Below the pieces are notes generated by a model. That model saw only the letters and a list, made by a program, of their open reading frames with translations, searched no databases and was not told the origin of the DNA. DNA of 64,000 nt from Owenia fusiformis (Eukaryota > Annelida > Polychaeta > Sabellida > Oweniidae), in NCBI GenBank assembly GCA_903813345.2, contig CAIIXF020000010.1, positions 9,044,349 through 9,108,348 of the forward strand, given 5' to 3'. Positions 14,940 through 45,884 of this stretch are shown in pieces; within the stretch, counting starts at the first letter, position 1, and the number at the start of each line of letters is the position of its first letter. A program made the translations under genes and the position numbers.

Positions 14940-16130
14940 TGCAAGTGAAACATTTTTTGCACTGTCAATCTTACCGACAGCATAAGTGAATAAGTATAAA
15001 GAAACCGAAGGATTCGAGATATAATAATAATCTAAGCCGCGCCATCGATTTGATTATAAAAGAGGGTGAAATCCATTTCATAATAGTTCTCAATAGTCTG
15101 CGATATAATTATATTAAGCGCAAAATTGATAGATTCTGAAATAATACAAAGTGAACGACTTCGTGGAGTCTTGAAGTGGGATGGATTGATTTATATTTCT
15201 AAAGGACATCTTGAAAGAAAACACGCAATGCAACTTGATTCGCACATTGAAACGATGTCAATCAGAAAAATAACCCAAAGAAATCTAATCTTGTTATAAT
15301 AGAAATTGAATCTTGTGTTTCGAACTTCAACGCCAATTACACTTTGATTTATCGTTGGGTCACGAGTACTATAAAGAACACCGTATGGTATCGGTTGATT
15401 CAATCATATTCTGTTCACAGAAGTGAACAAATGCATATTGTGTTTTTGTTTATGTAATGTTATGTTGTTCTTACGTTACTCTACGTTATGACATGACATG
15501 ACATATGTTATATTATTTTTTTTCCATAAAGAAGAGTAAGAAATATAACTGAATCTCAATCCGTCCGTTTGTCATCATATCATCCATATGCTAGCACCAA
15601 ATAGTCCCAACGGGACAACAAAAATAGAACATTTAATTTGTTTCCTTTAATTCAAGATTCCCGCTGTAAATCGCCAACCTTGCGGGACATAAATAGATTA
15701 TGCTTTTAAATTGTTTTTTTTATCAAGAGGCGCTAGTAGGCTTCATTGAACTATATATTAAGGTTATTTAATAAACCATCCAGGGTTTCAGTCATGATTT
15801 CTGCTTCTGGATTGAGCTTAAAGAAGTAAATTGAATTGTGTCGAACATGCCAACATCACCAAGGGAACGTACTCCACTGTGGTCACATTGAGCCAATGGG
15901 TCAACACTGACCAGTTCACATTTCGCGATTTTAGCATCACTTAAACAATATTCAATTAGATTATAACAAACTTATTTTGTATATGTTTTGAATTTTGTCC
16001 AAAAGCTAACAATGTTCACTAGAAGTCTTGAAGGGATACTGATCAGCATGCCTCTAATGTATAATAAAGTGTATTAGTATATGAAAACAGTGCCTTGAAC
16101 AGCTTTGCAACACTTGTTCCATTTTGTTTA
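14940..16130. other. Intergenic, nothing recognised
   Basis: Downstream of the DSL gene on its strand. A GACAT microrepeat lies near 15489-15505. An AATAAA on the minus strand at 16137-16132, about 115 bases past the DSL stop codon, is a plausible poly(A) signal. Confidence 0.4.
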
Positions 16131-16249
16131 ATTTATTCTATTCACGATTCCCTCATTATCGGGACTACATGCAATATAACTTAATATAAGTTCATTTTTT
16201 AAATTAAAAAATTCAACTGTTTTTTTTCGTTGAGGTCCAGTTATACGAA

Positions 16250-19200
16250 TCAAACGTTAGATGTTCTTTGGTCGCAGTTTTTTCCCGTCCAGCCAGGTGG
16301 GCAGGTACACGAATAATCGTCTTCCAAATTGCGACACGCACCTCCATTCTGACACGGTCTATCGTTGCAGTAAAGCTTCTTACAACTGCATAGAAGACCA
16401 TCCCAATGTTGGTTGCAGCAACATCGACCCTGAAATCGTTCAATCTATTAAGAATATCTCACAAGAGGATTCGCAATGTGACATTCAACATTTTGTCGAT
16501 CTGTAAGACAAATGTTGGTACTTCGTAGTTTCAAACTACCCCCTGGGGCAAATATAATTATATGAAGCTCTCTAATTAACAGTAAATGTGTTCTTAAAGT
16601 TGTAAAGCATAGCAATCTCTAGATATCTATCGCATATACCTGGAAGCACGATCCCTGTTGGCAGAATCCTTGTATCGGACACTCTGGGTCATTTGGTTGA
16701 GGGATAGTTCTGACGGTGCAATCTCGGGATGGATCTGTCCATCCAGGTAAGCACACCTTATTGTTCCCTACACACGTGTAATGTCCGCTACAGTCATCTC
16801 GTGGGGTACAGGGTGGCTGGAGGGGCGTCTCGCAGTATCTTCCGGTCCACTGAGGAGTACAGAAACAATTGAATCTTTCCACCCCCGATGTATGACGACA
16901 GGTACCGCCATTCAAACAAGGACCGGGAGCTGGTTCACATCCGAGAATCTGAATGTGGCAGAATCGTCCTCTCCAACCAGGGTTGCATACACACGTTTTT
17001 GCCCGACAAAAGCCTACAAAATATCCAATAGTAAATACGATATTGTTAAAATAAAGGCATATCCTAAGCATAGCATAGCATAAATGAGGTGAATTATACT
17101 GTAACTTTATCAATATTGCACCAATCCTAATATTAAGAAAGTTACATCTTTCACTTTGTCTATTTGGTACCCTGTAATAATGCCACAACTGCAAATATAC
17201 GTGTATGCGTTAACAATACATTACTCACCTTCATTCTTAAACACAAATTTCAATCCAGTCTCTCTTTTTAAGGCACATTTTCTGATGTGTATGTATGTAT
17301 GTATATATTTATTGCCCTTTGTAAAAAGGAGATACATTCATGCAATTATAAAAATATGATGCAGGTTTTAAAACAAGGGAGATATTTGGCAAAATTATAA
17401 AAAACGCAGTAACTTATTTTCTCACCGTTGATACAGTCCCCGTCATCCGGGCACTCTGGGTTAGGCGTTGTATCGAGCATACAGTCTTGTTCTGGGGCTT
17501 GGAATCCATTCCTGCATATTTTGGTACCATTCACGGAACATATATACCTCTCGTTTTCTTTGCAATAAATATCACAATTCTCCCCATAGTAATTCTTTGC
17601 ACAACCCTTGGTGGAGTTCGATCCATCTACACTCTCAATAACTACACCTGCTTGTACCTAAATAAAAAAAGTTGAAACTCAAATTAACAAATAGGGATTT
17701 TAGTGTTATCATTTATCTACTAGTGTAGTTATCGGGATATGTGTTATCCTATATGTAATAAAACTATAGATATATCCGAAATCTTTAGTGTGAATTTGTT
17801 GAAACCATAATGATTTTGTCTCGTTATCAAGAGTATACAAATATTTCGTTGCGGTTTTATCTTACATCGTAATTTCAATCACCGACACCATTTTTCACAA
17901 GTCACCGTGAAATATTGGGACGTCATGCTATTCTTATACTTGTAAAACTTAATGTGACTGTCATTTACCATTTATCACTGTTCCATAACTAGTTACGTTG
18001 ACGGAACGTCAATGTAACAAAATGGTTGAACTTTCTAGATACGAGTTTTTTGTTTTCTCGATTTAAACTTACGTATAAGTCATGTTGCAAATTGTACTTT
18101 GGCACAAAGTTAGACAATACAGTCTAGCTTTTAGAAATACTCTCGGTTTGGAGTTTGATTTTTTTCATGCATTTAGACCATCGCTTTTGCTACATTGACG
18201 TAAGTCGTCAAAGTAACATACATTGGTAATATAACGGACTTTCGTCGATGTAACAAAAGCGAGGGGCTAAATATATGAATTGCAACTTCATTTACAAAAC
18301 AAATTCCAAAGATAGAAACTTAAAGCAGATATGAAATGGTATTTTTAACCTAAAGGAATCAATATAATTTTTTGATAGATGTATTTGGACATGTTTTCTC
18401 ATCAGTAGTGTGAAAACTATATCACTCTAACGATCGTTATAGCTGCTTAATAAGCAATATTCGAATTGGTTGTGACGTTATTGGCCCCCACGTGATCTCT
18501 AACTGGTCCCCACGTGGCCCGTTTTGGTCCATTAGATCATGACGTCATAATGCCAAAATGTTTTGTTATTTGTTTACATAACAATCCTATGGTTGCCGTG
18601 ACGTTGTGATTACCAAGGAACTAATAAACCAAAGCTATATTTTGTATATGACGTTACTAATCACGTGGGGGCCAATTTGATTGATCAGTTAGTTTTATTT
18701 CGTTATCTATGACCGTTAGTAGTTATCTAACATTTATTTTATAATGGCTATCGCAAGAACTCTACGTTGGGCTTACAATGGAGAAAACCGCATTTTTATA
18801 GCTGCAAGTTGAGAAAGGGTTTTTCAGTTGTCCTTTAAAACAAGACTATATTTTCAAGCTTTGTTCCGTCAAAGTAACTAGTTGTGGAACAGTGATTTAT
18901 TAAGCAGAGAAAATAATTTGCTACATTGATGACAAAATGTTTCTATTTTCCTGCTGAACATCGAGTCTCGCATCATACGAATGTAATTTTAGGCGATCTG
19001 TCTACATGGGGTGTTATGGTAAGCCAGAGACATATCTCTGGGTAAGTTTAATTCTGTAGGTTTATGGATAACAACAAAACAATATTCGTACATGTATTTT
19101 GATGAAATGGTTGTAAAATCTATCTTTACCTGAACATATTTGTGAACAGTTTTAAAATTGATTCAAATAAACACATTGATTATTTTTCGAGAGATATATA

Positions 19201-19835
19201 ATTCTTCATGGTATTAAGTGGACATTGATTGTTAAGTTGTATGTCAGAATGAAAAGTTCAATAACTTTATACAGGGCACTTTAAATATCTCAATCATCAA
19301 TGTGTGAAAAGTTAGTATTGGTTTGTAATCAGTACTTACGTTTTGTAAAATAGACACATTGTCATAATAACAATATTATGGCGTGAAAGAGATTCAATGA
19401 TGTTCAACAATCTCTACTTTTCCATTCTTCAGTTTTGCAATATTCGATTTAATCTATAAGCGGGAGATATGGCGGGCGATGGAAACATCAAGATCAGGAT
19501 ACGTGATATAACTTATATCCCTAAGCTCTACTTGGCAATTTGATAAATCATTTTGTCAGATAACATAAAAACAACTACTTTTTTCATTGTTCAATGAAAT
19601 TCAATAAAATGTGAAAAACATCACTCCACTTATGTACAAAATCTATGATTTTAGAAAGTTAAAGCCAAATGATAATCATTGTCAAAAGAAAATTATGATT
19701 ATAAGATGATGACACGCATAACATTTTTGAACAGAATGCATATTAATTGCGACTTATACTTACGTGATAGGCAAAAGCTGCGAACAGCGAAACATACAGT
19801 AACGTCCACATACTGGCGTTTCGGGTCGATATCAT
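16250..19835 (-). CDS. Secreted protein with two DSL-EGF-EGF modules (four exons, 285 residues)
   Basis: Coding exons are 19835-19764, 17657-17426, 17013-16640 and 16429-16250. All junctions have GT donors (GTAAGT, GTGAGA, GTATAT) and AG acceptors, phases agree (0, 1, 0), and an in-frame stop lies upstream of the ATG. Residues 1-27 are a signal peptide with core [17 protein letters not shown] 1 spans 43-83 with Cys43, 52, 56, 64, 72, 83 and the YYG signature at 47-49; its middle loop is shorter than usual. EGF a is 93-120 and EGF b 127-162. DSL 2 is about 162-200, with [13 protein letters not shown] at 170-182 and a CLPGW at 189-193, its first Cys being shared with EGF b. EGF c is 213-240 and EGF d 247-278. 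The protein ends seven residues later with no membrane span, so it should be secreted. The DSL domain is the Notch-binding domain of Delta and Jagged ligands, so a soluble Notch modulator is likely but unproven. DSL, EGF, EGF is duplicated in tandem. Confidence 0.85.
17976..18894. mobile_element. CACTG-ended DNA element in intron 1 of the DSL gene
   Basis: Ends read CACTGTTCCATAACTAGTTAC and, inverted, CACTGTTCCACAACTAGTTAC, followed by shared GTTGACGGA/TTTGACGGA. ATTTAT flanks both sides (17970-17975 and 18895-18900), a likely 6-bp target duplication. The TGACG...GTAACA phrase recurs inside (18190-18260). No transposase frame was seen. CACTG ends suggest the CMC/Chapaev group, but the 6-bp duplication does not settle it. 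Confidence 0.7.
19459..19545. repeat. Fragment of the 50-52 kb hairpin family
   Basis: GCGGGAGATATGGCGGG, followed by a TCAGGATACG word and ending CTCTACTTGGCA, closely follows the sequence at 50913-51017. This is a single arm of that hairpin family located upstream of the DSL gene's second exon, inside intron 1. Confidence 0.7.
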
Positions 19836-22426: not shown

Positions 22427-25400
22427 TCACAAGACATCAACACTTGAATCATCTTCATCAGGATCATTCCCAATTGCCTGGATGTTGGAACAATCGCCCT
22501 GATCATGACAGGCACATATTGGAATGCAAGTAAGTCCTGCAGCCAGACAGGGGCACTTTCGTGCAACATTACAGTTTGCGTCCTTGCAATAAAGATGTGT
22601 AACATCCCTCAATTCAATTGGAGCGGGGTCTTTGGTGATCATTACAGGCATCATTTTCCCATTGACTATTTTCCATCCATTTCCAACTGGGTCCCACAAA
22701 TCTGGTTTGGCAATATGACTGGAAAGCCAAATCTGAAGTTGAATCTGACACCTTTGTACATGTTGCTTGAATGCATCTTCTGTTGGTGGAAGACTTGATG
22801 CTGGTTTATCTGTTGTAGAAGCCAACACAAAACGGAGGTCGTCTAATGTCATAGCTGCATTTGTTTTCTTTCCTGTCACACAATACATTGACAGAATGAA
22901 CTGCCTAGCGAAACTTTGGAATTTAATTTGGTCTTCAAATGCAGAAAGGCCAACCAGTGATGTGTGATTTTTCTGCAGTTTGGCAAAGGCAGTTCTCTTG
23001 CCAATTCTATGCAATGCGCAGGTTGTGTCCGATCCTGTGACCACGTGAACTGCAGGAAGTAGTCGACAAATACCTTCACCAAGTCCATTTGCAATTGTAT
23101 GAATAGGGATATATCGCTCCTTGTTTGCACGTCCAGTGTGCATAAAAACTTCAAGACTGTCTGTCAAATATGGAGTCTGAAAGTAATGCACTAGAAGGAC
23201 AAATACATCTGTGTCATCACACTTGACAATAATACGCTGGTGCTGTTTTGCATTTTCAATAGTGTGTAGAATGAGCATTGTATCAGCCTCTTCATGACTA
23301 CACGCAAGATGGGGGAGGTATTGATCACCGTTTTCTGTCAGCTTTAAAATTTTGTTTTTGTCTCGGAAACCACCGGCAAGAACTACACTCTGTCCCTTTT
23401 TGAGGTATTGAGGAGTTATGACCACTAGCATTTCACAAATGAAGTTAGCAAGATTTGCTTTATTCGCTGGATTCTTCAAGAATCTTCTAAAGTTAGGCAC
23501 ATTCCTTCCAGCAGCAATTATATGGGTAGTTGAGTCATCATTGTTGCCGCGTCTCTCACGTTCAGCAAATTTGATAGATTTGGTATTATCATATCTATCA
23601 AATACAACTGTTAGTGCATCAGTACTGCCTTTAAGAAACTTGAGGATTCTCCTTAAAACTGCATCCACCAGTTCCTCATAAGTCTTGAAAAGTTTTTCAT
23701 TCATCGACTGCAGCAGAGCCATCCCATCAAAGATGTAACTACTACTTCCTTCTTTAAGGTCTTCCAAAACTTCTGTCACTCCGGCATATGATTCCAGTCT
23801 CTTTGCTAATTCACACTTAGCAGTTTTTCTCATTGTTCCATCATCATTGAACAATGAGGGTGGCACTGTGGTGAGCTCATGCTTCAGCACTTGTTGTAAA
23901 TCTACATCACGATCCTTTGAAACCAAAAGCAATCTTCTAAATAAAACCTCAGATTCTATGGCAATCCTTTTTCCAGCAACAGTAATGGTAGTTTTCTTTG
24001 TGTCTGAAAAGGTTTTTATGCCAAGTCTTTTATCTGGATCCCAAAAGTGTGCTGTATCTTCCAAGAGCCGGTGTACTATGAACTTTTCTTGGTGTTTCTT
24101 GGCCCTGTCGAGACATTCAGTTAGATCCTTTTCAATCTCAAGGGGTGCTATTTGGCCCGTTCCTATGTTAATTAGATTTGGTGGAACAGTCTCCATGTCA
24201 AAGGGATTTTGAAAAATGTCAGTGATGGTTGACTTCATTTTTAGTAGGTCACTTTCATCTCTGGCCATTCTACTTTTTCCAATGTCACTGTGAATAGCCG
24301 TCGTGCTAACTGGTACTGTAAGATTTTTCACTCTCTCAGCATATTCAGCAGTTATATGCCTGGTGACAAGCCATCTGATAAGTGCACTCTTAGATCGTGT
24401 GAAACCTATGATTCCTCCTGAGCTTTTTGCTTCTTTGTTAATTGTTTGCTCGAGTGCCTGATCTGTTGGGACACAATTGAAACGGGTCGAGTCTGATCGT
24501 CTAACAACAAATCCACCTTCCCTCATATGTTTGTATGATTCAGGGTGAAGCTTTTCTAGTTGTTTCATTTCCAGGACATAAATAGGTGTATATCTTGCAT
24601 AATTTATTTTTCCTGCTGCAAAAAACCAGGGAATTGCTTCAGCAATCGAATCAAGATGGAGTTGAAAATTTGCCGAACGGTCAGCTCTGAGGATTCTAAA
24701 TAAGATTTCACACCCTTCGAGGAAAGTAGCCCAGTATTCAAATGTTTTTGATCTTTGTCTTCCTTCTCTTTTAAATAGTAAGAGCTTCTCATCAGTTGCT
24801 TTTATTTCCTGTTCCATATCTTCAATGAGCATTTTGACTCTGTCCAGTTGACTCTCATGAAAAGCTATCTCTAGACGTTGAAGAAGATCTTTCAGTTTTT
24901 CAGATAGCAGAGCTTCATCCTTTTCTGCATACCAGGCCTCTGCCGACTCTATATTTAGTCTAGAAAGTGCTTCGTAAGCTAGTTTGAGTCCCCTTATTCC
25001 TCTGTCTAAGTGTTTACCTTGTAGCATTTGTTTGGCACTTGCTGGTGCAAAAACATCTGATTCTGTTAAAATATGGAGTAGCCCACCATCAGCAAAAAGC
25101 TTTCCAATACTTGCAATAAGCGCCATTTGTAGGTGCATTACACCAAGTCTCATTGTAACCTTACCATTCAAAGCTTCTGGGTGACTCCACAATATTTGCT
25201 GGGCCTTACTGTAGATTGCCAGATCTGCAGTGACAAGTATCTGTTCTTGCTGAAGACTGAGAGCAATGTTGGCCAGTACTAAAAGTGCTGTATATATGGT
25301 TGATAAATCACTTGGTGATGCATTAATGAAAGGCAGGTACCTAATTATAGATGTTGGGATACTGTGCTCTTCTAAGGCTGCTATAAACCCAGCCCATGCT

Positions 25401-27286
25401 GGGATATTTTGTTCTTTGTCTTGGTTAATCATCCTTAGTAGTTTCCAAACTGAGTCAGATCTTTTTGCTTCCAATATTGCTGCTGTTGGTTTGTCTTGCA
25501 TAATATCAGCAACATCTGAGATAGGGGCAGGGTTTGATCTTTTGGGGGGTTTGATATATTTTGACAGTGTTTGATCCTCATATTTGTTAATATCTTGAGT
25601 GCTCAACGACTTGCTAGATTGACATGGTATGCTTGTTCCCTCACCTTTCATTTGGCATTTCTTTTGATAAAGTACCATTGCCATTGAGTGTGTACTGTTT
25701 TTGCCATCCAACGTATCTTCATTCTGGTCAAAGTTATCAATTGATGCGTCCACATGTCCAACTGTATCCTTATCTGGTATTTGGATGCCACTTGGTACAT
25801 AAATATCTGATCTTCCTATCTCTGTCTTTGCAGCTGATGTTGTAAAAGCTCTAATTTCATTGTAGGAAGTGCAAAACCCCAATGCATTCAGACAATCTAT
25901 GAGTTGTTTACTACCATGGTCATGTTGAAGCTTTATTCCAAGCGCCATTGATAATGGAGTCCAAGCATTTCTTGACAAAGCTATTATGCAATGGCAGATA
26001 CTGACAACCTTCATATCAAACTTCTTTGGATTTGTACCAGTACCCTCATTTATGCGACTTACATCTTTAAATGAACTTTCATTTGTACACCATGTCACAA
26101 AATCATAAAGCAACTCGGGAATAAATGTAGCACATGCTTCTTTATTGATACTCGTGCTAGAAGGATACACAGACTTTCCTTTTGGCAGCTCAATCTCGGC
26201 AATGGCCCCTCGCAGAATGCATGCAGCATAATGGAGCACATGATGTGGTTCCTCCATAGTTTGATCAAGAACTGGTTCTTCCTCAAGTAGGGCATCTTCA
26301 TCCTTTATTGCATTAGCTTTGAAGAGTGCTTCTCCTACAGTTAAATTGCCAGGGCAAATAATACCTGGCTGATTTGGTCTTTCAATGAATTCAATCCTGT
26401 CACCAAACCAATTTTTCAATCGATTCTTCAGTTTCAAAGTCCTATATTCTTCAGCATTTTTAATGCCTTTGTCTTTTAAAGCCTTCGTGAACATGTTATG
26501 TAGGTGCTTTGAACTGAGAACTTCAGCCTTCTTGGACAACACCGTCTTCTCAACATATGCAATTATTTCCTCAAAGGCCAAGTCATAATCAGAACCTGAG
26601 GATGTTGACTGTTTATTGATTGCTGCTTTTATATTACGTATATTTACATAACGTGAGTAACAAGTCCTATGATATTGGGCATCACATGCAAATAAATCAG
26701 TATGGGCAGTCAACCGCCCGACCAACAGGTTATCATTTCTTTCATTGGCAGCTGTGAGTATTCTTTGCCTTGTGCTCTCCCCCTCATTAGTTGTAATTTT
26801 TGTAAGTGGGTATTTACGTGTTGATGTTTTGCTACACCCACTGATACATTGGTAAAACATACAACAATTTTCATTTATTTTGAAATTCTTATGAACCCTA
26901 TCAGACTGACGAATTGAACTTGAGGTAGACGCCGTCTGATCTTCAGGCAAGGTATTTTGAAATACTGGGGGTATGTTACTTTTACTAGTATAGCGTGACC
27001 TGCACCCATAATGAAATGATACATATATTTTTTGACTTAAAATGTCATTTCTAAACGGAAGCAAATTGTCATATACTTCGTCTTTGTACAAAGTTGCATA
27101 GTTTATTATTGATGATAGGCCTTCTGTCTTAGGGGTTTTCACAAAGGGGCCCTTTATTTTATTTTTCAATGACTGCATGCATATAATACAGTTTTTAGGA
27201 TTAGGTGGAGCTGGCTTCATCTTTTTTGGAACTGGCTCTGTCTCAGGGTCACTCATTGTGCTAGAGTTGCCACACCCAAGATCCAT
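22427..27286 (-). CDS. Academ-like transposase: XPG/FEN-type nuclease with Cys8 tail, 1619 residues
   Basis: One unbroken frame from MDLGCGNSST to SSVDVL. The N-terminal part has zinc-ligand pairs: CIIC at 33-36 with HYGC at 92-95, and CDAQYHRTC at 201-209. Residues about 590-990 are helical and include a block (ARYTPIYVLEM at 897, DQALEQT at 942, GGIIGFTR at 957) recalled from large multicopy invertebrate and fish proteins. Residues 1180-1440 read as an XPG/FEN fold: Asp1187 in IFDGMALL, VVFDRYDNTK at 1227-1236, HEEADT at 1331-1336, CDDTDV at 1356-1361, then TGSDTT plus ALHRIGKRTAFAKL (1418-1437), an H3TH-like motif. The tail 1567-1599 has exactly eight Cys (1567, 1572, 1578, 1580, 1587, 1591, 1593, 1599). 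The role would be cutting and moving its own element; the nuclease step is inferred from the family. A host-domesticated gene is less likely given the flanking TIRs. Confidence 0.82.
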   Translation of the reverse strand: MDLGCGNSSTMSDPETEPVPKKMKPAPPNPKNCIICMQSLKNKIKGPFVKTPKTEGLSSIINYATLYKDEVYDNLLPFRNDILSQKIYVSFHYGCRSRYTSKSNIPPVFQNTLPEDQTASTSSSIRQSDRVHKNFKINENCCMFYQCISGCSKTSTRKYPLTKITTNEGESTRQRILTAANERNDNLLVGRLTAHTDLFACDAQYHRTCYSRYVNIRNIKAAINKQSTSSGSDYDLAFEEIIAYVEKTVLSKKAEVLSSKHLHNMFTKALKDKGIKNAEEYRTLKLKNRLKNWFGDRIEFIERPNQPGIICPGNLTVGEALFKANAIKDEDALLEEEPVLDQTMEEPHHVLHYAACILRGAIAEIELPKGKSVYPSSTSINKEACATFIPELLYDFVTWCTNESSFKDVSRINEGTGTNPKKFDMKVVSICHCIIALSRNAWTPLSMALGIKLQHDHGSKQLIDCLNALGFCTSYNEIRAFTTSAAKTEIGRSDIYVPSGIQIPDKDTVGHVDASIDNFDQNEDTLDGKNSTHSMAMVLYQKKCQMKGEGTSIPCQSSKSLSTQDINKYEDQTLSKYIKPPKRSNPAPISDVADIMQDKPTAAILEAKRSDSVWKLLRMINQDKEQNIPAWAGFIAALEEHSIPTSIIRYLPFINASPSDLSTIYTALLVLANIALSLQQEQILVTADLAIYSKAQQILWSHPEALNGKVTMRLGVMHLQMALIASIGKLFADGGLLHILTESDVFAPASAKQMLQGKHLDRGIRGLKLAYEALSRLNIESAEAWYAEKDEALLSEKLKDLLQRLEIAFHESQLDRVKMLIEDMEQEIKATDEKLLLFKREGRQRSKTFEYWATFLEGCEILFRILRADRSANFQLHLDSIAEAIPWFFAAGKINYARYTPIYVLEMKQLEKLHPESYKHMREGGFVVRRSDSTRFNCVPTDQALEQTINKEAKSSGGIIGFTRSKSALIRWLVTRHITAEYAERVKNLTVPVSTTAIHSDIGKSRMARDESDLLKMKSTITDIFQNPFDMETVPPNLINIGTGQIAPLEIEKDLTECLDRAKKHQEKFIVHRLLEDTAHFWDPDKRLGIKTFSDTKKTTITVAGKRIAIESEVLFRRLLLVSKDRDVDLQQVLKHELTTVPPSLFNDDGTMRKTAKCELAKRLESYAGVTEVLEDLKEGSSSYIFDGMALLQSMNEKLFKTYEELVDAVLRRILKFLKGSTDALTVVFDRYDNTKSIKFAERERRGNNDDSTTHIIAAGRNVPNFRRFLKNPANKANLANFICEMLVVITPQYLKKGQSVVLAGGFRDKNKILKLTENGDQYLPHLACSHEEADTMLILHTIENAKQHQRIIVKCDDTDVFVLLVHYFQTPYLTDSLEVFMHTGRANKERYIPIHTIANGLGEGICRLLPAVHVVTGSDTTCALHRIGKRTAFAKLQKNHTSLVGLSAFEDQIKFQSFARQFILSMYCVTGKKTNAAMTLDDLRFVLASTTDKPASSLPPTEDAFKQHVQRCQIQLQIWLSSHIAKPDLWDPVGNGWKIVNGKMMPVMITKDPAPIELRDVTHLYCKDANCNVARKCPCLAAGLTCIPICACHDQGDCSNIQAIGNDPDEDDSSVDVL

Positions 27287-27289
27287 TGT

Positions 27290-27700
27290 CTTTATTCATC
27301 CATCAGATCTGTGATAATAAATAAAGGACAATGTCTCAGCTTTGAATTGATTGAATATCTGACATAAAGATCTTCATATTTGATACTTTCTATTAAAGGA
27401 AATGCTTATTCAGTTAAACGAATTAGTATTACTATGGAGGAGATATATCATTTAGCTATATGGATAATAAATATCTACCTGTTACTAGTACTTTGATTGC
27501 ACACTTTGTCCATTGAAGTTCCCTATCAATCTTAATATGTATCACCCAATGGGTCGTTACCAAGTACCATCCTATTAAAAGAGAATTTAAATAGACTATA
27601 TACCTGCATGATTGATTATTAATGAGATTTTATCCACTTAATACAAAAACTGTTGATACATTAATTACTTAGTTTTAATGTCATATTAATATCTTTTCAT
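27290..27700. other. Element DNA upstream of the transposase start, nothing recognised
   Basis: AT-rich sequence 5' of the transposase ORF that would hold its promoter. A possible splice acceptor (TTATCACAG near 27310) could mark a 5'-UTR intron. No second ORF is present. Confidence 0.4.
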
Positions 27701-44381: not shown

Positions 44382-45590
44382 TCAGATATCGCCTCGTGCT
44401 TTGCGAAGTGGTATGATACAACTAGATTTCTTTGCAGAGGCGGAGCTCAACGATCCTGGAAGTTGCAGAAACGTATTTGAAAAGCACTTTCTAAATTCCC
44501 TATTCGTGCTTGCGTATAACACAAAGTTAAGAGCAAAATTGAGCACCAAGCACGTGTCAATACTGATTCTCATGAGCTGAAACTTGTCGCAGTAAAGTTC
44601 GTCCCTGTCAATGGTCAACATGAAGAAGAACCAAACGGCAGATGGTGACTGCGACAAAATAAAGAAAAAGTTGATCGTGAGTAGAGTAATCGTTATTCGC
44701 TCGTTTCTAATTGCCCGGGAACTTCTTCGTCGGTTATAGCCTGGGCAATGATTCTCATATGTTTTCAATGCCTTTCTCCTGAGTGTAAGAATCAAAGAAA
44801 TACTCAAGATGAAACACACAAGCCATGGAATGACGATGTTAAGAACAACCTTTGTCGGGTAATACGTTGTTTGAAAAACCCGACTGTAATATAGGTCTGT
44901 AGAGGATACATAGCTTATCGTTTTGTTTCCGTCGTTAAATGTCGCAATTCGTTTTTGAAGAAAATCTGGACTGTTTAGGAGAATAGCCCATATAAATATA
45001 ATGCAAGACACCTTTCTAGCCTTCCGTCTTGTGCAAATCCTTAACGCCATTGTTGGTAACTGCACTGCAATAAACCTAAATACGGTCACTGACATGGCGT
45101 GGGTATTAGATGCAGTGATAAAAATGTTGGTCGGAATAGAATAAAGAGCAAAGAAAATCCTCCATGGAATAAATGGAATATCTAACCACTTTGGTGATTG
45201 TTTTTCCAACAGTTGGAACCTTTCCGAGCTGTAAAAATAAGTGTAGTAACAGAGAAGCGTCAGTAATGTTGCGGTATCAGCCACCACCATTCCGATGTAA
45301 AATATCGATGTAACATTTACCATAACTGGCCGAGTGAAAATCACTAGATTTACGATATTCAGACATATCCCGATACAGCATACTATTGGAAGTAATATTC
45401 CTCGTATATAAAACTCAACTGTCAGTCGAATATGATGCAGTTCATAAGTACATCCATCATGCAAATCAGAGGGCTGTATAGTTGTAATATTCGAGTATTC
45501 TGTTGTTCCATTTGTTAAAACCCCAACTATTGTCACGCTTGTGTTGAATTCTTGGCTCGGCCAGTCAGTGGTGTTTGTTTGGAAGTTCAT
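44382..45590 (-). CDS. Divergent rhodopsin-family GPCR, neuropeptide (FMRFamide-like) receptor type
   Basis: An intronless coding frame of 402 residues. The extracellular N-terminus (1-60) has four N-glycosylation sites (Asn6, 16, 27, 34). Seven membrane spans lie near 62-86, 95-120, 144-170, 194-212, 246-270, 299-325 and 339-361. Family landmarks are Asp105 in span 2, Trp201 in span 4, Pro255 in span 5, Pro316 in span 6 and NFVLY (355-359) in place of NPxxY, followed by a short amphipathic helix. The DRY motif is FRF (171-173), and the usual Cys at the start of span 3 is missing. The shape and the NxxxNFxxY end recall invertebrate FMRFamide-type and orphan peptide receptors; the ligand is unknown. 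An acceptor (TTCTTTGCAG) at 45661 places a 5'-UTR exon at 45660-45591, so the promoter lies further upstream. It should signal at the cell surface through G proteins. Confidence 0.85.
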   Translation of the reverse strand: MNFQTNTTDWPSQEFNTSVTIVGVLTNGTTEYSNITTIQPSDLHDGCTYELHHIRLTVEFYIRGILLPIVCCIGICLNIVNLVIFTRPVMVNVTSIFYIGMVVADTATLLTLLCYYTYFYSSERFQLLEKQSPKWLDIPFIPWRIFFALYSIPTNIFITASNTHAMSVTVFRFIAVQLPTMALRICTRRKARKVSCIIFIWAILLNSPDFLQKRIATFNDGNKTISYVSSTDLYYSRVFQTTYYPTKVVLNIVIPWLVCFILSISLILTLRRKALKTYENHCPGYNRRRSSRAIRNERITITLLTINFFFILSQSPSAVWFFFMLTIDRDELYCDKFQLMRISIDTCLVLNFALNFVLYASTNREFRKCFSNTFLQLPGSLSSASAKKSSCIIPLRKARGDI

Positions 45591-45660
45591 ACCCCTGTTG
45601 TCAATATTGCGATAGAATGTAGAATAGACCGCCCGTCTTCGTTGTGTCTCTAGGCGGCAG
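45591..45660 (-). other. 5'-UTR segment and splice acceptor of the GPCR gene
   Basis: TTATTCTTTGCAG ends at 45661 on the minus strand, 70 bases before the ATG. This is the usual arrangement for intronless-CDS receptors with a non-coding first exon. The donor was not located. Confidence 0.6.
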
Positions 45661-45884
45661 CTGCAAAGAATAATGCAAATATTATGGCAAAGAATACATT
45701 TAACTCAGACAAGCATTACTTATAGTTATAAGTAACAGCGCGCTATGCGGCAATAAACTATCAAACTACACTAAAATAATATTAAGCCGATAAATAATGT
45801 ATGGCAGGCCAACTTGTATATTCATAGTTGCTGTTTCCATCGAAAACAAGGCATGATATATCACATTCCAGCCAATCAGAACAC

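Follow-up and report, generated by a model that had tools for sequence, protein, structure and literature searches.

A 64,000-nucleotide stretch of the Owenia fusiformis genome (hereafter the window, C10:9044349-9108348; 498 Mb of the genome were searched) holds on its minus strand a real gene that is predicted to encode a small secreted protein with the order signal peptide-DSL1-EGFa1-EGFb1/DSL2-EGFa2-EGFb2. Homology and splice sites alone served to delimit the four exons of the gene; these have GT-AG borders, agree in phase and join into 858 nucleotides encoding 285 residues and a stop. A pattern search in 15501-16252 located an AATAAA 113 bases past the stop codon. The features are as follows (window coordinates).

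19764..19835, minus strand: exon 1, residues 1-24; ATG at 19835, donor GTAAGTAT; hydrophobic, signal-peptide-like start
17426..17657, minus strand: exon 2, residues 25-101 and base 1 of codon 102; acceptor TTTAG, donor GTGAGAAA; putative end of the signal peptide, DSL1 and start of EGFa1
17481..17603, minus strand: DSL1, residues 43-83; six Cys, YYG; Pfam DSL 37.6 bits when scanned alone, profile positions 1-41 of 46
16640..17013, minus strand: exon 3, remainder of codon 102 to residue 226; acceptor TTGTAG, donor GTATATGC; end of EGFa1, EGFb1, DSL2 and start of EGFa2
16832..16939, minus strand: EGFb1, residues 127-162; Pfam EGF (PF00008) 28.4 bits
16718..16810, minus strand: DSL2, residues 170-200; Pfam DSL 31.2 bits when scanned alone, profile positions 14-41 only; extra Cys C176
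16250..16429, minus strand: exon 4, residues 227-285 and stop; acceptor TTTCAG; rest of EGFa2 (CCC at 229-231), the odd Cys C242 and EGFb2
16132..16137, minus strand: AATAAA, likely polyadenylation signal

The original prediction, made from the letters of this DNA, had proposed a soluble protein with a signal peptide, two DSL-EGF-EGF modules and no membrane span, and splice-site sequences, hydropathy and Pfam profiles bear it out. Its four exons carry GT/AG flanks, keep phase and yield the 285 residues, and both the YYG at residues 47-49 and the 13-residue stretch it placed at 170-182 were found in the translation. The N terminus is hydrophobic, with a maximum 19-residue hydropathy (KD19) of 1.64 at residue 13, and on this hydropathy it is described as signal-peptide-like. 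After residue 30 the protein contains no hydrophobic span (highest KD19, 0.47) up to the stop that precedes the AATAAA.

The spliced product was scanned with Pfam profiles at cut-offs of 24.2 bits for DSL, 21.5 for EGF (PF00008), 24.3 for EGF_Teneurin and 65 for PF25024. Against the DSL profile the whole protein scored 39.9 bits, and each of the two Cys-rich blocks passed the cut-off alone, as anticipated; DSL2 is N-terminally truncated and not a full domain. DSL1 was also recovered in the six-frame genome search (C10:9061841-9061951, 36.6 bits). Four EGF repeats had been proposed, and three of these units exceed a Pfam cut-off, including EGFb2 at 45.7 bits (PF00008) and EGFa1 at 25.3 bits (EGF_Teneurin), whereas EGFa2, with its CCC run, scored above no Pfam cut-off when scanned alone. 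The Teneurin EGF domain (PF25024) was rejected at 63.7 bits for the whole protein, and the protein gave no MNNL match at E up to 1.

A genome search with the window protein returned 131 matches, at the top of which were the window gene itself and long open frames at five places, designated L029 to L033. Measured from stop to stop, these frames span 2592 (L029), 1370 (L030), 2193 (L031), 910 (L032) and 1526 (L033) residues, and a Cys-pattern parse divides them into 19, 10, 16, 7 and 11 DSL-EGFa modules, respectively. With two modules in the window gene and one each at L034, L035 and L036, the total is 68. Outside this set are the orphan DSL with which L033 begins, DSL1 of L036, and the second DSLs of L034 and L035, which are split over exons and were seen by eye. 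Pfam likewise marks 19 stretches of L029 as DSL at E up to 1. The window gene, with two modules, belongs to the family defined by two or more DSL-EGFa-EGFb modules. An intron interrupts each of its EGFa units; each giant relative is a single open frame across its array. Across the genome, six-frame searches gave at least 63 DSL matches versus at least four MNNL matches, and none of the latter four falls in the window. In three related modules (15 of L029, 7 of L032 and 5 of L033) the DSL reads TCDC and the preceding EGFb CSCC or CNCC, a further added Cys pair that was seen by eye.

The L029 frame is followed by a GTAAGT donor that can be spliced in phase, through a later AG acceptor, to an exon with a strongly hydrophobic span (hydropathy 3.25). 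This largest member is thus probably a type I membrane protein, as judged from its predicted splicing, and the window member is predicted to be secreted.

A FastTree analysis covered 66 of the 68 modules, two short pieces from L034 and L035 being omitted. Module 1 of the window gene forms a group with the first modules of L029 and L030 (support 0.931), and its module 2 forms one with module 2 of L029 (support 0.955). Modules 1 and 2 were therefore already distinct before the window gene and L029 separated, and the window gene is, from its sequence, a short, presumably secreted relative, colinear with L029 over modules 1 and 2. The tandem duplication that had been proposed is thus real, but it predates the split from the giant relative; a duplication private to the window gene is ruled out by the module tree. 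Within L029, modules 3-13 are highly similar as protein. The synonymous distance (dS) between modules 5 and 6 is 0.561, indicating that the array is not very recent. The ratio of nonsynonymous to synonymous rates (dN/dS; Nei-Gojobori, own script) was 0.127, 0.318, 0.068 and 0.039 in four pairs of family modules, and the family modules are under constraint.

We found a regular arrangement of added cysteines among the modules. In 65 of the 68, the C3-C4 loop of the DSL has an extra Cys and EGFa has a CCC run, and neither is present in the other three (module 1 of the window gene, L029 and L030); there were no mixed cases. This pattern fits an added disulfide between DSL and EGFa. The window protein has 37 Cys in total, and its C242 is common to module 2 of L029.

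Module 2 of L029 has a full DSL beginning CPPNYYGPGC, the first hairpin of which is missing from DSL2 of the window protein; the C5-C6 hairpin of EGFb1 (C153-C162, C-x8-C, 16861-16832) occupies the position of C1-C2 of DSL2. DSL2 had been described as sharing one Cys with the preceding EGF; sharing is indeed seen, but of a Cys pair, that is, of a hairpin. We defined a hybrid as a complete EGF pattern in which the final Cys pair also provides the first two Cys of a DSL, and counted 22 such units in the loci scanned: one in the window, two each in L030, L032 and L033, and 15 in a cluster at C1:31.835-31.935 Mb, where they correspond to 15 of its 19 Pfam DSL matches, the other four being non-hybrid by pattern. 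No hybrid was found in L029, L031, L034, L035, L036 or L037. Residue shuffles of the Cys-rich frames of the C1 cluster gave a mean of 0.005 hybrids versus the 15 observed, a weak null that ignores EGF structure. The window hybrid is itself atypical, with seven residues before the next Cys versus two or three in the others, and simple truncation would describe its DSL2 equally well. The suggestion of an evolving boundary gains support from the hairpin sharing in these 22 units.

The C1 cluster (C1:31835001-31935000, L039-L048) carries its 19 Pfam DSL matches in tandem over 100 kb of the minus strand. Many of its DSLs end EGF arrays, one of them in a frame of 1038 residues, and are followed by a segment resembling W-x-G-E-P-x-x-C.

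In a review, the C1-C2 loop of DSL is reported to superpose on the C5-C6 loop of EGF, and DSL is suggested to derive from truncated tandem EGFs (PMC3415683). The same idea appears in PMC2725086, which offers no strong evidence for it. EGF/DSL hairpin sharing fits this published idea. Tentatively, and as a possibility that we consider less than probable, the hybrids may be the intermediates that it predicts, in a lineage that also put the DSL to mass use, membrane-anchored and soluble, outside canonical Notch signalling.

The original prediction had also suggested that the protein is a Notch ligand, perhaps bivalent or a decoy. The Notch contact face is formed by F199, R201, R203, D205 and F207 in Jagged1 numbering (PMC3415683). 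In the window protein, DSL1 keeps only an aromatic residue and K, and DSL2 only R and D. Phe207 is kept in none of the 68 family DSLs, and a basic residue at position 203 in five of the 68. At L001 of the same genome, F, R, R, D and F are all retained. However, the Phe207 criterion is not decisive, because Phe207 is also missing from L002, a DSL that lies about 3.2 kb from a strong MNNL match. With no MNNL match and most Jagged1 contact residues lost, Notch binding by the window protein appears less likely than had been supposed. By consensus motifs, O-glucose and O-fucose sites lie on 13 and 14, respectively, of 15 EGFb-type units of L029 and on most such units of the giant members; the window protein has them on none of two (O-glucose) and one of two (O-fucose).

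The missing MNNL and the missing span speak against a canonical Delta/Jagged ligand. The protein is most likely not a canonical Notch agonist, as judged from its sequence, because an MNNL/C2 site is absent, the DSL contact face is poor and there is no anchor with which to pull on a receptor.

We consider it likely as a whole that the gene in the window is real, that its product is small, secreted and a short member of a DSL-EGF-EGF family, and that this product forms an extracellular rod and does not act as a Notch agonist. The gene structure, the domain matches, the family and the colinearity of modules 1 and 2 are established at the level of sequence. In the protein, the DSL2 loop would be tied to EGFa2 through the added disulfide, and C242, the odd 37th Cys, could link two chains. 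Outside the cell the product would be a short soluble rod, possibly dimeric, with a partner bound via its DSL/EGF faces. We think it likelier that the protein would modulate adhesion or contacts with the matrix, among them perhaps those made by its membrane-bound relatives, than that it would activate Notch.

Several observations weigh against this explanation. Both the gene model and secretion are deduced from the DNA itself. The shortened DSL1 loop and the truncation of DSL2 could be signs of decay. Comparisons of the window gene with L029 (pN 0.344, pS 0.949) and L030 (pS 0.809) are saturated at synonymous sites, so that the dN/dS constraint refers to the family modules and not to the window copy. 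The Cys pairing rests on about one event, because the three modules without it form one clade, and DSLs of the C1 cluster carry the extra Cys, by eye, without a CCC-type EGFa following. L031 and L033 are likewise followed by hydrophobic frames, weaker ones that reach a hydropathy of 2.89. Finally, a structure comparison with the exon 3 model listed EGF-containing chains, and no listed match isolates DSL2 on a solved DSL.

Another possibility, which we regard as doubtful but worth weighing, is that the protein is a soluble Notch modulator that binds Notch weakly via its DSL-EGF modules, competing with membrane ligands or serving as a co-ligand. The DSL fold and the DSL-EGF-EGF order are present, two NOD matches indicate that the genome encodes Notch-type receptors, and soluble ligands are described in nematodes, namely the secreted C. 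elegans DSL-1 (PMC3415683) and the Notch ligand DOS-3 (PMC11162419). Furthermore, at one locus at C1:52.3 Mb, where the second DSL module is of the CCC type, an MNNL match of 30 bits precedes the first DSL by about 4.7 kb. Against such a role, the window protein lacks MNNL, its DSL1 contact loop is shortened, and the Phe207 and position 203 residues are rarely or never kept in the family, although this last objection is weakened by L002.

At the same C1 locus, L036 together with L052 (C1:52.303-52.310 Mb) comprises an MNNL match, two DSLs, CCC-type EGFs and a Thr-rich stretch. If joined, as we infer, L036 and L052 would be one possible ligand gene, which might connect the poly-DSL family with canonical ligands.

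It is improbable that the gene is a decaying copy, a truncated and no longer needed remnant of a giant poly-DSL gene. The window gene has only two modules, DSL2 has lost its first hairpin, and the C3-C4 loop of DSL1, at seven residues, is the sole one shorter than 11 among the 68 family DSLs. Yet its four exons are free of stops and frameshifts, its splice sites are intact, all 37 Cys are kept, it has its own signal-peptide-like exon and AATAAA, and pN to L029 is 0.344 against the saturated pS of 0.949. About as improbable is an incomplete model that lacks exons for more modules or for a membrane span, as might be imagined from the separate downstream exon that holds the span of L029 and from the way in which the window exons were identified: exon 4 ends in an in-frame stop with the AATAAA beyond it, a tblastn search of the window with the L029 span exon gave a best match of only E 9.5, and same-strand frames from 16260 down to 8001 are only weaker hydrophobic (2.2-2.3 versus 3.25). 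Chance resemblance is ruled out, because the protein is 53% identical to the second locus, L029, over residues 41-280 (E 1.6e-68).

Two other features were noted in the window. An intact open reading frame of 1622 residues (22427-27295, minus strand) has no Pfam match at E up to 0.01; among its 41 genome matches are a 98% identical full-length copy on C180 and several that are broken or about 30% identical, and it looks like an uncharacterised mobile element. At 44382-45704 (minus strand) a single frame of 440 residues encodes a receptor of the rhodopsin class, which matches Pfam 7tm_1 at 36.1 bits and Srw at 35.2 bits.

The DSL domain is regarded as the hallmark of Notch ligands, with one copy per protein. 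A single genome with at least 63 DSL versus at least four MNNL matches, and with DSL-EGF-EGF arrays of up to 19 modules, contrasts with this one-per-protein view. The compact, putatively secreted window protein is of a size that allows expression and testing, and the EGF/DSL hybrids supply concrete sequences for testing the origin of the DSL fold.

In the titles, openings of abstracts and excerpts covered of the literature on multi-DSL proteins, DSL expansion and EGF/DSL evolution, we found no description of DSL-EGF-EGF arrays, which is no proof of absence, and none of EGF/DSL hybrids. Cnidarian DSL-only genes with 1-11 DSLs, together with one MNLL gene with three DSLs, are reported in PMC2770060, which also warns of misassembly; PMC8166818 reports bivalve DSL tandem repeats without EGFs and mentions genes with more than one DSL. 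These DSL-only proteins resemble the window protein in carrying several DSLs per chain, but they have no EGFs in between, and the window protein, with its EGF units, is not of the DSL-only type. L038 (C1:48003001-48012000), a 650-residue frame of DSL-like repeats that by eye lacks EGFs, does resemble them. Proteins with several DSLs but no EGFs have thus been published before.

Like Delta and Jagged, the window protein has DSL followed by EGF repeats, and a predicted model of L029 DSL1 superposes on the Serrate DSL; unlike them, it has two DSLs, neither MNNL/C2 nor a membrane span, and a contact face that is largely lost. Compared by architecture, C. elegans DSL-1 is likewise a soluble DSL-EGF protein, but with one EGF after its DSL (PMC3415683) versus two DSL-EGF-EGF modules here. 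Two DSLs with EGFs, as in the window protein, are also described for a Capsaspora receptor tyrosine kinase (PMC4810162), which is a kinase receptor of a unicellular relative of animals, whereas the window protein has no kinase.
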